64,000 nt of DNA from a virus. Position numbers and translations under genes: made by a program. Below, in pieces: positions 24,057 to 57,496 of this stretch. Every line of letters starts with the position of its first letter. Positions within the stretch are counted from its first letter, which is position 1. The notes beneath the pieces were generated by a model. It made no database searches. It saw nothing but the letters and a program-made list of their open reading frames with translations, and was not told the DNA's origin. The DNA lies in the IMG/VR virus record IMGVR_UViG_3300028490_000007, positions 1-64,000 of that record. One strand, written 5' to 3'.

Positions 24057-25799
24057 ATGGATGCACTAAGAGAACTCAACAAGCTTATGCCAAGCGACGT
24101 ACAGTTTACTGGTGCAGACATGCCTTTAACTAAGGCATCTATAATGCCGAAGTTAACACAATTCGCTTCCAAACACCCTTCCCTCTACGCACAAAAGATA
24201 CACAAAATACGTGAACTCGGAGAAGAGCTTGCCTACTTAAATGGTCACAACATGGGACCAAAAGATTTAACATATTCAAACCAAAAAGATATTGATAAGC
24301 TTCTGTCCACCGAAGATGCTAAGGTTCGTAAGATGAGCCCAGAAAAAGCAAAGACGCATCTTATCAATGTATTTAATCAAGTCCAGAACATAGTTATGAA
24401 AAACAAGGATAACAACCTAGTGTCTCAGGCTGCTTCTAAGGGAAGAGGTAATCCTGCCACAGCTTCAAGGATTGGAGCAGGAGTTGTATATGCAGTAGAT
24501 ATGAATTCAGAGCCCTACCCCTTTATGATAAAGAACAGTTTATCTACAGGACTAAATGCTCATGAGCAATATGTATCTGGAGGACAAGCAAGATATGCTG
24601 CCGTTCAAGCAGCCGTATCTACTTCTGAACCAGGAGCAATGGGCAAGGTTCTTATTGCAAATACCGAAGACCTAAAGATCGCAGAAAAAGATTGTGGGAC
24701 AAGAAACGGTATCATGGTTCCGGTTATGGGGAATGATGCTATATCAAGATATGAAGCAGGAACGAACAAACTTGTAGATGAGCAATATCTAAAATCCTTG
24801 AGAGCAAGAGGCAAGCGTAAGATTAAAGTCCGATCACCAATAACTTGCAAGTCAAGACATGGCGTGTGCTCAATGTGTATGGGAAAAAATTCTAACGGCA
24901 ATCTTCCAACAGTAGGTCACAATGTTGGGATAGAGGCTGCTCAATCTATGTCTGAAAAAGCAATACAGCTCATTCTTAGTGCAAAGCATAATGTCGCAGG
25001 TAAGACAGCTTCTCATATTCCTACAGGATTTCAGGCAGCCAAGATACTGCTAAACTCGACAGAGAAATTCAAAGGGAAGGCGGCTGTATCCTCTATTGGT
25101 GGAAATGTCAAGTCTATACACAAGCTTACTACTGGTGGGTACAATATCAACATATCGGGAGTAGACCACTTTACTTCACAGCATGTTTCCCCGAAGGTTA
25201 CAGTTGGGTCAGTGGTAGACAAGGGAGATATCTTAACTAATGGTATCGCCTCTACAAAAGATATTCTATCCCACAGAGGCGTATTAGAAGCCAGAAAGTA
25301 TTTGTCTGACGAGTTGGACAAAGTGCATGGTGGCTCCATAGACAAGAGAAACTTTGAAGTTGTAAGTAGAGGGTATCTAAACCTCGTTAAACCGATGAGC
25401 GATAAGTCTCATGGCAATATGAAAACATTTGACGAATTTGTTCCAACTATAAATGGAACACATATGAAAATGATGAACACATCAGACAAGCAAATAACTA
25501 AAAAATTCTTAGCTGAACCGGCTCTGCATTTTAGCCCAGGTAAACAAATTACAAAAACAGTGGCTGGCTATTTAAAGAAAAATGGGGTAAAATCCGTTAA
25601 GGTTTCTCATACTCCTCTTGATTACACACCTGTATTCAAGACGTATGAGCAGAGACCTCTATTCAATAAGTCTATGTGGCAACAGATAAACTATAGAGGC
25701 ATCAAGAAGGGACTCACTGATGGACTACTGTCCGGAGGTGAAGAGGATCTTAATCATATAAAGTCTGATAGAGCCCGTTTCGCTCTAGGCATACTATAA
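24057..25799 (+). CDS. RNA polymerase beta-prime C-terminal-half homologue
   Basis: 580 aa. It aligns with bacterial RpoC from the bridge-helix region onward: S-K-G-R-G-N (126-132, compare S-G-A-R-G-N), I-K-N-S-L-S-T-G-L (158-166), E-K-D-C-G-T-R (210-216), V-R-S-P-I-T-C-K-S-R-H-G-V-C-S-M-C-M-G (258-276), and the trigger-loop block G-I-E-A-A-Q-S-M-S-E-K-A-I-Q-L-x5-H (291-311). All four zinc cysteines (C213, C264, C271, C274) and the trigger-loop histidine H311 are kept. The N-A-D-F-D-G-D catalytic motif is absent, since that half of beta-prime is missing. It sits among virion genes and contains no own promoter. It may be part of a split phage polymerase, or a structural protein derived from one. 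Confidence 0.85.
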   Translation: MDALRELNKLMPSDVQFTGADMPLTKASIMPKLTQFASKHPSLYAQKIHKIRELGEELAYLNGHNMGPKDLTYSNQKDIDKLLSTEDAKVRKMSPEKAKTHLINVFNQVQNIVMKNKDNNLVSQAASKGRGNPATASRIGAGVVYAVDMNSEPYPFMIKNSLSTGLNAHEQYVSGGQARYAAVQAAVSTSEPGAMGKVLIANTEDLKIAEKDCGTRNGIMVPVMGNDAISRYEAGTNKLVDEQYLKSLRARGKRKIKVRSPITCKSRHGVCSMCMGKNSNGNLPTVGHNVGIEAAQSMSEKAIQLILSAKHNVAGKTASHIPTGFQAAKILLNSTEKFKGKAAVSSIGGNVKSIHKLTTGGYNINISGVDHFTSQHVSPKVTVGSVVDKGDILTNGIASTKDILSHRGVLEARKYLSDELDKVHGGSIDKRNFEVVSRGYLNLVKPMSDKSHGNMKTFDEFVPTINGTHMKMMNTSDKQITKKFLAEPALHFSPGKQITKTVAGYLKKNGVKSVKVSHTPLDYTPVFKTYEQRPLFNKSMWQQINYRGIKKGLTDGLLSGGEEDLNHIKSDRARFALGIL

Positions 25800-51119: not shown

Positions 51120-51374
51120 ATGATAAAAGCTTTTGAAGACAAAATATTAGCCAAACGTGTAGGTGAAGATAACCTTACATCAAAGGGCGTAGTTAAAACT
51201 TCTACCAATAAAGAGAAGCCGTTAAAGGTGGTTATTATTGACAGTGCAGTCAGTGAAGTGGTAAAAGGTGATACCTTTCTTATTGCGAGATTTTCAGGAA
51301 TGGAATTTGAGTTCGAGAATGAAGAATATCTGACTATTGGTATCGATGATATAATCGCAAGGATTACGTCATGA
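51120..51374 (+). CDS. GroES-like co-chaperonin
   Basis: 84 aa, slightly shorter than the usual 95-97. It keeps the family layout: D-K-I-L-A-K near the start, G-V-V-K, V-V-K-G-D-T-F, then F-E-F-E-N-E-E-Y-L-T-I-G-I-D-D-I-I-A-R-I (compare the E-Y-L-x-x-x-E-x-D-I-L-A ending of GroES). The mobile-loop region is short. It overlaps the GroEL-like gene by 4 nt and shares its promoter. It would cap the GroEL ring and might adapt it to phage proteins. Confidence 0.75.
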   Translation: MIKAFEDKILAKRVGEDNLTSKGVVKTSTNKEKPLKVVIIDSAVSEVVKGDTFLIARFSGMEFEFENEEYLTIGIDDIIARITS

Positions 51375-52818: not shown

Positions 52819-53589
52819 ATGAAAAACAGTATCACCCCCCCATCAGACACAGAAGAGACAGCCAAGCAAACTGCAGAAGAGAAGTTTGAAGAGTTCAAGA
52901 AAGTAGAGTCAGCAAATGATAAGCTCACAGAGGACAACATTTCTACGGAGGCTATAGATTTTGAAGAAAGTTCTTTTCTTGAAAAAAATAAACATGCAGG
53001 TCAAAAAACAGAGGCTCCAAAAGAAGAAGACGAAGATAATGCTGAAGCATATGAACAAAGCTTCGTAGACAAAGAAATGAATAAGGCTGAAGAAGAAGAT
53101 CTTTCTCCTGAAGAAGCAATGGATAAGGTTATTCGAGAAATAGCAGACCAACCATTTGAAGTGGCTATGTCAAACCTTGAAGTGGAGAAGAACCAAGTAG
53201 TAGAAGCTGCCTCTGGTATATTCTCTTCTAAGGGGTACTTTGAGAAAGACTACTCACTTCCTTTTGGAGGAGAGGTAACAATGAGAAGCAAGACAGTAAA
53301 TGACTATGTTGACTACACAGAATACGTAAGACGTTTATTGTTAGATCCTATCTCTCAAAAAGAGTTTGATACCTTCACTCAAATGAGAAACTTGTCATAT
53401 GCTATTGTTGCTATTGACGGAGATGATATCTCGGAGTTGTCAATAGACGATAAATTTGCATTGCTGACGGGAATGAGCGAAATCAAGATTACTGCCATAA
53501 TCAACAATACGAAAGTTTTCTGGAGAATTACCCACCTTTTACTACACCCAGGTCTAGTCGATTTTTTAGCACAAACGCCAGAGGAGTAA
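52819..53589 (+). CDS. tail assembly chaperone, zero-frame product
   Basis: 256 aa. The first 130 residues are acidic and low-complexity (E/K/A-rich). The C-terminal part carries a compact domain (Y-V-D-Y-T-E-Y-V-R-R-L-L ... L-S-Y-A-I-V-A-I-D-G-D-D-I ... L-L-L-H-P-G-L-V-D-F), in keeping with chaperones that coat the tape measure. Near its end lies a canonical slippery heptamer, allowing a longer -1 product. Here the chaperone is downstream of the tape measure, the reverse of the common order. The ribosome site is AAAGGAACCCAA. Confidence 0.75.
   Translation: MKNSITPPSDTEETAKQTAEEKFEEFKKVESANDKLTEDNISTEAIDFEESSFLEKNKHAGQKTEAPKEEDEDNAEAYEQSFVDKEMNKAEEEDLSPEEAMDKVIREIADQPFEVAMSNLEVEKNQVVEAASGIFSSKGYFEKDYSLPFGGEVTMRSKTVNDYVDYTEYVRRLLLDPISQKEFDTFTQMRNLSYAIVAIDGDDISELSIDDKFALLTGMSEIKITAIINNTKVFWRITHLLLHPGLVDFLAQTPEE
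53562..53568 (+). promoter_or_regulatory. -1 ribosomal slippery heptamer TTTTTTA
   Basis: In the zero frame the codons are GAT TTT TTA, so the heptamer is T_TTT_TTA, one of the most efficient -1 sites. A perfect 6-bp hairpin CCAGAG/CTCTGG (53578-53583 with 53592-53597) begins 9 nt downstream, and the zero-frame stop (53587-53589) lies in its loop. Site, spacing and hairpin are as expected for programmed slippage. Confidence 0.85.
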
Positions 53590-53810
53590 TTCTCTGGGCC
53601 TTCAAGAGGCTTGATGCTATGGACTCACCTCCTGAGCATTCCCTTGAAAAGAGTGTTCTTGAAGGTTTGTTATCATATAGGGCTAGACGAAATAACATGA
53701 TGAGCATCAATAGTTCGCTGCTTGGAGTGTATGGTAGCCTGCTTGCTGCAGGAGGCGGAGACGCAACAGATATAGACGACTTGATAAGAGAAATGTCTAC
53801 TGGCCTTTAA
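53568..53810 (+). CDS. -1 frameshift extension of the tail assembly chaperone
   Basis: After slippage the -1 frame continues for 80 codons to the TAA at 53808-53810. It reads through W-A-F-K-R-L-D-A-M-D-S-P-P-E-H-S-L-E-K-S-V. The complete fusion is about 330 aa. An internal ATG at 53619 has only a poor ribosome site, so independent translation is less likely. The extension has a helical middle and a glycine-rich tail, comparable to the T part of lambda GT. Confidence 0.8.
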   Translation, partial: STNARGVILWAFKRLDAMDSPPEHSLEKSVLEGLLSYRARRNNMMSINSSLLGVYGSLLAAGGGDATDIDDLIREMSTGL

Positions 53811-53819
53811 GGAGGGTTT

Positions 53820-55646
53820 ATGAGTAACATATTTAAAAAATCTATTGAGTTAATAAACTCTTGCATGAGCACCAATATTACCATTACTGGAGACATGTAT
53901 ATCGTAGATGGTCTATACTTCAAGAACTTCAAGAGAATGATATCTCACCTTGGAATAGAAGATGATTTAATGGACAGTATGAGACAACATAGAGCGTTGT
54001 ATTCATTAGCTAGGCATTATAAGTCTTACCCTGAACCGGCATATGACAACTTTGCATGGCAGGGAGCTAAAGGCGAATACTTTACGAGGCAGAATGTGTA
54101 TAGAGACGGGGATGCATATGTTGCTAATGTGGACTTCCGTATCCGTATGCCTTGGGGAATGATTGACATAAAGAAAACAAACAGAATTCAGCCGGCATAC
54201 ACAATGGAGGGATTTGACACAGGCATCATACTTGTACGAAGCAGATCTGACGCAGAAGTATTTTGTCCAGACAAAAGTATGCTTAGGTTTATCAACCATG
54301 ATACAAATGCGATGAAGGCATCTATACTTAGTAGCTATATCACAAAGAGAGCAAGTAGCGAAGTGAAGAATATCGTAATATCTGATATGTTCCCATCTCT
54401 GCTTAATGCATGCAAGGCAGGGCTTGTTTCTGAAATATCTTGTGCCAAGTCAAAAGAAAGAGCATTCGCCAAAGTATTGCTTCTTGACAGGGATGCAATG
54501 GCTGTATCTCACCTCCGAATAAATGGCGTAACACCCGTATTGTTTATTGCTCAATACATCTCCGTTCTAACAAACAAAGAGGTTAGAATTGGCGTACAGA
54601 ATGGGATATTTGCATGCAGGGAAACAGGAGAGGCGATCCCAGACATTTTTGCATCCTTGCTTGCAATTAATGCAGAGATGCCTTCTCCTGTAGCTCCAGA
54701 GATAAAAGCTTTCATCTTCAAGACAGTTGATGCATTCTACTCAATAAGCTATGGGTACAGAACATCTGTGACTGAAAAGTTTGGAGGTACGGTTCATGTT
54801 TATACCGGAAAATCAGATAACAAGACCGCAAGAAAGGTAGCAAGTGCAATCACAAGCCTTCCTGTAATAAAAGATGAACTGAAAGATATCAAGATAAAAG
54901 ATGTAGTGTCTTTAGTCCATGAGTATTTAGGGGCAAAGAGGAAAACAAATGCCTCTGACAACTCAAGTATTGAATTCGGTGGAGTTGATATGGTGATGGA
55001 CTTTACAAATGGGGCACTTGTCTTTAATGATATCGGGAACAAGTCAGTCTCTGCAAGGTGGCTCTCGTCTCCAAATTTGGGCAGGAAGCCAACAGGACAT
55101 GCAAGTAGAGCAATGACCTTCAAGTATATCTTTTCGTCCACAGAGGATGCACAGAGAGCTTTAAGGGGGACATACTTGATGAGTCTATCTGTACTCTTTG
55201 ATGTTCCCTGCAGAATAGCAGTATCTGCTAATACAACTAAAGCAGCAAGGAATGTTGTTAGGTATTTTTCATCCACTGCCTTTAATACATTCAGTTCGTC
55301 TTTTAAGCATCCGGATATTATGTCTTTTTCTGGTAGGGAAGTTGCTGTGATTATGGAGAGGGAAGAGGCTGATTTTGGTGGACTAACGCACAAGATTGTG
55401 ATCTTAAGGGACGAAGAAGATGCTGAAATAGACTTCTATACGGGAGCACTTTCTCCTGCCAAAAGCACAAGCCTGTATAACTTACAGGTCACAAATCCTG
55501 ACAAATGGTATATCTACTATCTTGGTAAAATGCTGAAAGAGTTGGCTGAAGAGTATTCCGACATGGAGCAGTTAAAAGCACACATGTCTATAGGCGACAA
55601 TTTGAAGAGGTTTGTTGATGCAGCAGAGGTTGACTCAATCTATTAG
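53820..55646 (+). CDS. large virion-region protein, last rightward gene
   Basis: 608 aa, mixed alpha/beta, not recognised. It has a strong ribosome site (TAAGGAGGGTTT) and no obvious domain boundary. Its C-terminal 12 bp overlap the end of the convergent 55635-56417 gene. By position next to the tail chaperone it could be a tail or baseplate protein, but nothing in the sequence proves this. Confidence 0.55.
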   Translation: MSNIFKKSIELINSCMSTNITITGDMYIVDGLYFKNFKRMISHLGIEDDLMDSMRQHRALYSLARHYKSYPEPAYDNFAWQGAKGEYFTRQNVYRDGDAYVANVDFRIRMPWGMIDIKKTNRIQPAYTMEGFDTGIILVRSRSDAEVFCPDKSMLRFINHDTNAMKASILSSYITKRASSEVKNIVISDMFPSLLNACKAGLVSEISCAKSKERAFAKVLLLDRDAMAVSHLRINGVTPVLFIAQYISVLTNKEVRIGVQNGIFACRETGEAIPDIFASLLAINAEMPSPVAPEIKAFIFKTVDAFYSISYGYRTSVTEKFGGTVHVYTGKSDNKTARKVASAITSLPVIKDELKDIKIKDVVSLVHEYLGAKRKTNASDNSSIEFGGVDMVMDFTNGALVFNDIGNKSVSARWLSSPNLGRKPTGHASRAMTFKYIFSSTEDAQRALRGTYLMSLSVLFDVPCRIAVSANTTKAARNVVRYFSSTAFNTFSSSFKHPDIMSFSGREVAVIMEREEADFGGLTHKIVILRDEEDAEIDFYTGALSPAKSTSLYNLQVTNPDKWYIYYLGKMLKELAEEYSDMEQLKAHMSIGDNLKRFVDAAEVDSIY

Positions 55647-56869: not shown

Positions 56870-57496
56870 TTATACCTCCTGCGTATTGTTTCGTATATAT
56901 GATTTACGCATTCTAGCACGAAGCTTATTAAGACCACTATAGTACGCACCATTTGACATACCAGTATGCTTCAGTGCCTTTGGCGTTGACATGCCTTTCT
57001 CTATAGTCTCTGATATCTTCTTTTCTTTACCAGACAGGTCAGGCAATAGTGACTGCATAGAGACATAATTTGTCCCTCCACCAAACTTGTCAGTTACGAC
57101 AGCTTTTATTTGACCCATCTTCTTATATTTGTTTACAAACTTTGACTTAAAGCCTGTGTGCTTAGCTAGTTCTGCATCTGTAGCATCTCTACCATGCATC
57201 ATGTAAAGCTCATCATTAGCTGTTCTCAACTTGTTTATTGCCATACCTACGTCTTCACTAACTTTTAAGTTAGAACTAGACTCGTGTACGTCTCTCTTCA
57301 GTTTGTTGAGGTGATTGCTTAGGTGAGTTTTAAATGAGGCATTCTTTGTTTTATCAAAAGTACGCTCTGCATTTTGCGAGTACGTATATAGCTTATAATC
57401 CAGTTCAGCAGGAGATAGCTCTGACGAGTATGTCCGTTTGAAGTGGTTTATTGTATCCATATGGCCTGAGACCATAGGACTATATACGTTGCTCAT
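56870..57496 (-). CDS. sigma-70-family-like protein
   Basis: 208 aa. Region 2-like: F-D-K-T-K-N-A-S-F-K-T-H-L (47-59; compare F/Y-D-P-S-K-G-x-F-S-T-Y). Region 3-like: L-R-T-A-N-D-E-L, then H-G-R-D-A-T-D-A-E-L-A-K-H-T-G (101-115). Region 4-like: L-S-G-K-E-K-K-I-S-E-T-I-E-K-G-M-S-T-P-K, then a recognition-type helix S-N-G-A-Y-Y-S-G-L-N-K-L-R-A-R-M (154-196). The order of all three regions supports a divergent sigma factor, although the region 2 core-binding helix is not strongly conserved. It is encoded within the head gene cluster. Confidence 0.55.
   Translation of the reverse strand: MSNVYSPMVSGHMDTINHFKRTYSSELSPAELDYKLYTYSQNAERTFDKTKNASFKTHLSNHLNKLKRDVHESSSNLKVSEDVGMAINKLRTANDELYMMHGRDATDAELAKHTGFKSKFVNKYKKMGQIKAVVTDKFGGGTNYVSMQSLLPDLSGKEKKISETIEKGMSTPKALKHTGMSNGAYYSGLNKLRARMRKSYIRNNTQEV

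Follow-up and report, generated by a model that had tools for sequence, protein, structure and literature searches.

Organization of the locus and its relatives

Positions 52,819 to 53,810 of the window, a 64,000-nucleotide stretch of viral DNA forming part of a 77,122-base IMG/VR virus record, hold a gene with a slippery heptamer near the end of its zero frame and a -1 frame that stays open well beyond the zero-frame stop (Table 1). The gene lies two genes away from a tape-measure-like gene, in an order opposite to that of lambda, and the series tape-measure-like gene, GroES, GroEL, frameshifted gene and 608-aa-like gene was kept in all four genomes in which it was found. The three relatives, L007, L011 and L023, were other IMG/VR contigs; one, of 187,664 bases, was reached via the terminase, and the other two (165,427 and 97,197 bases) were then reached by whole-record and profile searches. 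The gene was present at 65% identity in the 187,664-base contig, and the fused protein was 67, 51 and 47% identical to those of the three relatives. Nucleotide and protein searches of a phage collection and IMG/VR with the gene or its downstream neighbor gave no match, no relatives were found in bacterial and archaeal genome contigs, and additional scans of IMG/VR, queried with the capsid protein and with a profile of it, recovered no genome carrying the gene beyond the four.

Table 1. Features at the locus and in two phages with remotely homologous genes (aa, amino acids)
Feature	Coordinates	Strand	Remarks
Tape-measure-like protein, 1863 aa	45445..51036	+	Homology to gp4 of Arash and D181; homologues in relatives 1224-1913 aa
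GroES-like co-chaperonin	51120..51374	+	Between the tape-measure-like gene and the putative chaperone gene
GroEL-like chaperonin, 478 aa	51371..52807	+	Immediately 5' of the frameshifted gene
Zero-frame gene	52819..53589	+	256 aa; gpG-like product; homologues in L007, L011 and L023
Possible weak Shine-Dalgarno-like stimulator AGG	53550..53552	+	AGGA, AGGA and GGAG at this position in L007, L011 and L023
Slippery heptamer T_TTT_TTA	53562..53568	+	Relatives have TTTTTTA or TTTTTTG
Extension in the -1 frame (80 codons and a stop)	53568..53810	+	Predicted 330-aa fusion, gpGT-like; predicted all-helical
Predicted stimulatory hairpin, 8 bp, GUAA loop	53578..53597	+	Spacer of 9 nt from the heptamer; compensating changes among relatives
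TAA stop of the zero frame, within the hairpin loop	53587..53589	+	Same spacing in all four genomes
Next gene, 608 aa, no assigned function	53820..55646	+	In all four genomes a gene of comparable size (542-622 aa) comes next
gp2/gp3, Salmonella phage Arash	L002 1622-2538		Annotated as separate hypothetical proteins; resemble one frameshifted gene
VPHD181_0002/0003 (gp2/gp3 equivalents), Vibrio phage D181	L003 1536-2395		Annotated as separate hypothetical proteins

Several features of the surrounding genes were recorded in addition. By eye, the C-terminal third of the tape-measure-like open reading frame seems to include a D-Ala-D-Ala peptidase-like domain (SKHEDGKAFDIGI...GHIHFEF), a stretch that the two shorter relatives (1396 and 1224 aa) appear to lack. 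GroEL is placed elsewhere in the other phages examined, lying between the sheath and tube genes in Vibrio phage pv27 and having no tape-measure neighbor in Pseudomonas phage EL and Aeromonas phage pAEv1810. A 208-aa protein encoded on the minus strand among structural genes (56870-57496) showed profile homology to gp10 of Arash, annotated as a sigma factor, and to D181 gp11, and an RNA polymerase beta-subunit-like protein is encoded at 24057-25799; like Arash, the lineage seems to have a multi-subunit RNA polymerase of its own.

Slippery heptamer and downstream hairpin

The in-frame codons at the end of the gene read GAT TTT TTA GCA CAA ACG CCA GAG GAG TAA, which places T_TTT_TTA in the X_XXY_YYZ phase, as the first-pass annotation of this DNA had claimed. 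The same annotation had described an 80-codon extension in the -1 frame and products of 256 and about 330 aa; the -1 frame is indeed open for 80 codons (53568-53807) and closes at 53808-53810, and the computed lengths are 256 and 330 aa. The predicted zero-frame and frameshift-extended products share their N-terminal part, and this layout is common to all four genomes. When in-phase XXXYYYZ heptamers were sought across the 17,736 codons of the window's 53 likely genes, only one of 66, that at 53562-53568, opened a -1 frame extending at least 40 codons past the zero-frame stop. The distance from heptamer to stop is 6 codons in each genome (the scan of the window lists the heptamer as 8 codons from the stop). 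About 9-10 nt 5' of the heptamer the window and the three relatives carry AGG, AGGA, AGGA and GGAG, respectively, which could act as a weak stimulator.

A spacer of 9 nt (53569-53577) separates the heptamer from a stem formed by CCAGAG and CTCTGG. The 6-bp hairpin described earlier at this distance is borne out, and the predicted fold is slightly better, since the stem extends to 8 bp (53578-53585 paired with 53590-53597) closed by a GUAA tetraloop that holds the zero-frame stop, as had likewise been claimed. The window hairpin has a minimum free energy (MFE) of -11.8 kcal/mol (z = -2.07), with 5 of 200 shuffled sequences folding equally well, and 2% of 40-nt windows in the genome reach the MFE of the site. 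Because hairpin energy by itself is weak evidence, the case was built on conservation in the relatives.

Conservation of the site and selection on the -1 frame

A structure was predicted downstream of the heptamer in each of the four genomes, with spacers of 7-9 nt, inside the 5-9 nt expected for a stimulatory element, and energies from -10.2 to -14.4 kcal/mol; that of L011 was weaker against shuffled sequences (z = -1.66). The 5' arm of the stem is CCAGAG in the window and L007, AGCCCC in L011 and AGCCCAAA in L023, and the 3' arms match in every case. Since the stems slide 1-2 nt against the codon alignment, stem pairs were tabulated by script, and compensating pairs were evident at stem positions 18 (A-U or C-G), 19 (G-C, C-G or A-U) and 21 (G-C or A-U). 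The 3' arm shifts by 1-2 bases among the relatives; the position of the hairpin is constant and the stop codon falls in its loop in all four genomes. All four likewise have the T6 heptamer, a zero-frame stop that starts at offset +25, and a -1 frame that adds exactly 80 codons.

Past the zero-frame stop, only the -1 frame can be coding. Comparison of the window with L007 over this part of the extension gave pN = 0.18 and pS = 0.84. Counted by -1 codon position, there were 18 differences at the first, 10 at the second and 44 at the third, an excess at third positions. The other two frames contain 4-10 stops over the same interval and lack the third-position pattern. On these sequence comparisons the -1 extension is under purifying selection.

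Identity of the protein

The zero-frame protein has an acidic, probably disordered N-terminus followed by a predicted chaperone-like alpha/beta domain at approximately residues 132-245. A fold model built from the four sequences reached pLDDT 60 and pTM 0.52, with pLDDT of ~76-88 in residues 111-160 and 191-250. The best match among the solved-structure chains re-aligned by VIA-align was the HK97 tail assembly chaperone (2ob9), at Z = 4.7, rmsd 3.7 and 10% identity over 88 residues, a weak score in a range that common arrangements reach; the window protein also differs from 2ob9 in its extra acidic N-terminal region of ~110 residues. The runner-up was a PICI protein of unknown function (Z = 4.5), and the remaining chains scored 2.3 or less. 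Foldseek against the PDB returned nothing below E = 0.6, so that 2ob9 surfaced only on re-alignment with VIA-align, and a sequence-profile search of the PDB gave no meaningful match. Against BFVD, the best named Foldseek match was the tail assembly chaperone of Rhodococcus phage Finch (E = 2.3e-3, probability 1.0); those of Salgado and 9NA matched more weakly. A Z score of 4.7 on its own would not carry a chaperone identity. Pfam and PHROG searches of the zero-frame protein matched no family; tail-chaperone families diverge beyond recognition, and the missing match therefore decides little. The 80-aa extension was predicted as three helices, and its fold had no structural match.

Remote homologues were found in Salmonella phage Arash and Vibrio phage D181. 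The zero-frame profile detected gp2 with hmmsearch (E = 8e-7 for D181 and 0.056 for Arash) and hhalign (91.9%, E = 6.8e-7), and the 1863-aa family aligned with gp4 of both phages over 178 columns (hhalign 97.8%, E = 8.8e-13). As in the window, the zero frame of gp2 ends at an in-phase slippery heptamer, the -1 frame is open beyond it, through the annotated gp3, and strong RNA structure lies downstream (z = -2.3 and -3.9 in the two phages). Unlike in the window, the heptamer is A_AAT_TTC and is followed at once by TAA, the -1 frame is open for 115-120 codons, gp2-gp3 lies directly upstream of gp4, the tape-measure homologue, and no GroEL was found in the parts searched. A profile of the extension found nothing in Arash and D181 (0.5% against gp3 with hhalign), and homology of the extension part is therefore not claimed. 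From their length variation, their position and a hydrophobic, Gly/Ala-rich segment near residue 120-150 of the window protein, we infer that the 1863-aa protein and gp4 are tape measures. Given the gp2 and gp4 homologies, both lineages would thus have a frameshifted chaperone paired with a tape measure, in the classical order in Arash and D181 and in the reversed order here.

The identification as a tail chaperone, which is supported less directly than the frameshift, draws on the weak but specific match of the modeled fold, the tape-measure-like neighbor and the remote homologue in Arash and D181. A real frameshift could instead serve a different protein of the virion or of its assembly, such as a baseplate chaperone or a minor tail protein, and the missing family match, the moderate structural evidence and the position of the gene downstream of the tape measure are all compatible with such a protein. 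We regard this as unlikely, however, in that the fold matches point toward tail chaperones and the remote homologue occupies the classical place upstream of the tape-measure homologue.

Alternative routes to the downstream frame

The same fusion could in principle arise during transcription if a host or phage RNA polymerase added one U within the T6 run, which is kept in all four genomes and from which one extra U yields the same -1 frame; the phage, moreover, encodes an RNA polymerase beta-like protein. This we consider very unlikely. The T run stays at 6, shorter than the transcriptional slippage sites cited in the literature (T more than 8; PMC3711429); the hairpin, placed 7-9 nt downstream and with the stop in its loop, suits ribosomal shifting; and the Arash and D181 homologues use A_AAT_TTC, which lacks a long run.

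Even less probable is that no frameshift occurs and that translation of the downstream frame, as an independent gene, starts at the ATG at 53619 with the aid of the upstream AAGAGG, the outcome that the first-pass annotation had named as counting against a shift. A weak Shine-Dalgarno-like AGAGG does precede this ATG, and L023 likewise has an ATG at the position, but two of the four genomes (L007 and L011) do not, and conservation of the -1 frame already starts 5' of it, at the heptamer, with W, K and D invariant between the heptamer and the ATG position. In L011 the -1 frame has a TGA immediately 5' of the heptamer and lacks a start codon before offset +60, so that, as far as can be seen, the conserved first part of the extension would be reached through the shift only. 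With an ATG that is not conserved and an entry in L011 apparently by the shift, an independent downstream gene is unlikely; nothing, moreover, would then account for the retention of the heptamer, of the hairpin and of the 6 codons between heptamer and stop. A sequencing error or a decayed gene, with two frames that were once one, might be suspected in a metagenomic contig and has next to no probability, being refuted by the same arrangement in four contigs that differ at most silent sites.

Comparison with known systems and proposed mechanism

A programmed -1 frameshift is thus supported by conservation in three relatives, hairpin covariation and purifying selection on the -1 frame, and we hold it to be highly probable that it is real and lies in a G/GT-type tail assembly chaperone. 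As with gpG and gpGT of lambda, -1 slippage shortly before the first gene ends would yield a short product and a C-terminally extended one, and the tape-measure gene is close by. The slippery heptamer of lambda is GGGAAAG. The window differs in its T_TTT_TTA heptamer, in its strong conserved hairpin with the stop in the loop, and in having the gene after the tape measure with GroES and GroEL between. The lambda G/GT-type assignment made in the first-pass annotation accordingly stands with respect to expression strategy and does not extend to gene position or to detectable similarity to the Pfam and PHROG tail-chaperone families. In lambda, the G product binds the tape measure, the rare GT product has the tube protein as a further partner, virions contain neither, and the 30:1 ratio of the two products matters (PMC5009743). 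The tail-chaperone frameshift is widely conserved in long-tailed phages, except T4 (PMC5009743), and efficiencies of 6-7% were reported from measurements on genes of the HK97-like cluster (PMC3711429).

In the mechanism that we propose, most ribosomes would open the hairpin and terminate within it, at 53587, yielding the 256-aa G-like chaperone. A minority would be held up at the hairpin while their tRNAs sit on TTT and TTA; a slip of one base back onto TTT and TTT would then let these ribosomes translate a further 80 codons and complete the 330-aa GT-like fusion. On the model of lambda, the short, abundant form would cover the tape measure protein, and the long, rare form would recruit the tail tube protein via its helical C-terminal domain; actual slippage, the product ratio and the binding to tape measure and tube proteins are all part of the proposal.

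Two further, separate suggestions are rather doubtful. The stop in the loop, 6 codons past the slip site in every one of the four genomes, may be regulatory, in that a terminating ribosome would hold the hairpin open and slippage would track ribosome spacing and release-factor activity; were this so, the short-to-long ratio would be tuned during infection. Separately, the GroES/GroEL pair may be a dedicated tail-assembly chaperonin working with the frameshifted protein.

This kind of system is already well known, and how such genes work stays as thought. The gene described here is a new member of it, in a little-known phage lineage, most of whose proteins have no family match. It is slightly unusual in the constant stop-in-loop geometry, in the reversed order with the chaperonin pair between, and in the re-annotation that it suggests for Arash and D181, in which gp2 and gp3 can be taken together as a single frameshifted gene. 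The locus also supplies a clear example of a downstream hairpin kept through compensating changes and a case in which the order of chaperone and tape measure is reversed with a chaperonin pair between them. For a lineage largely without family matches, the gene offers a functional anchor, in that a probable tail assembly chaperone and a probable tape measure can now be named.
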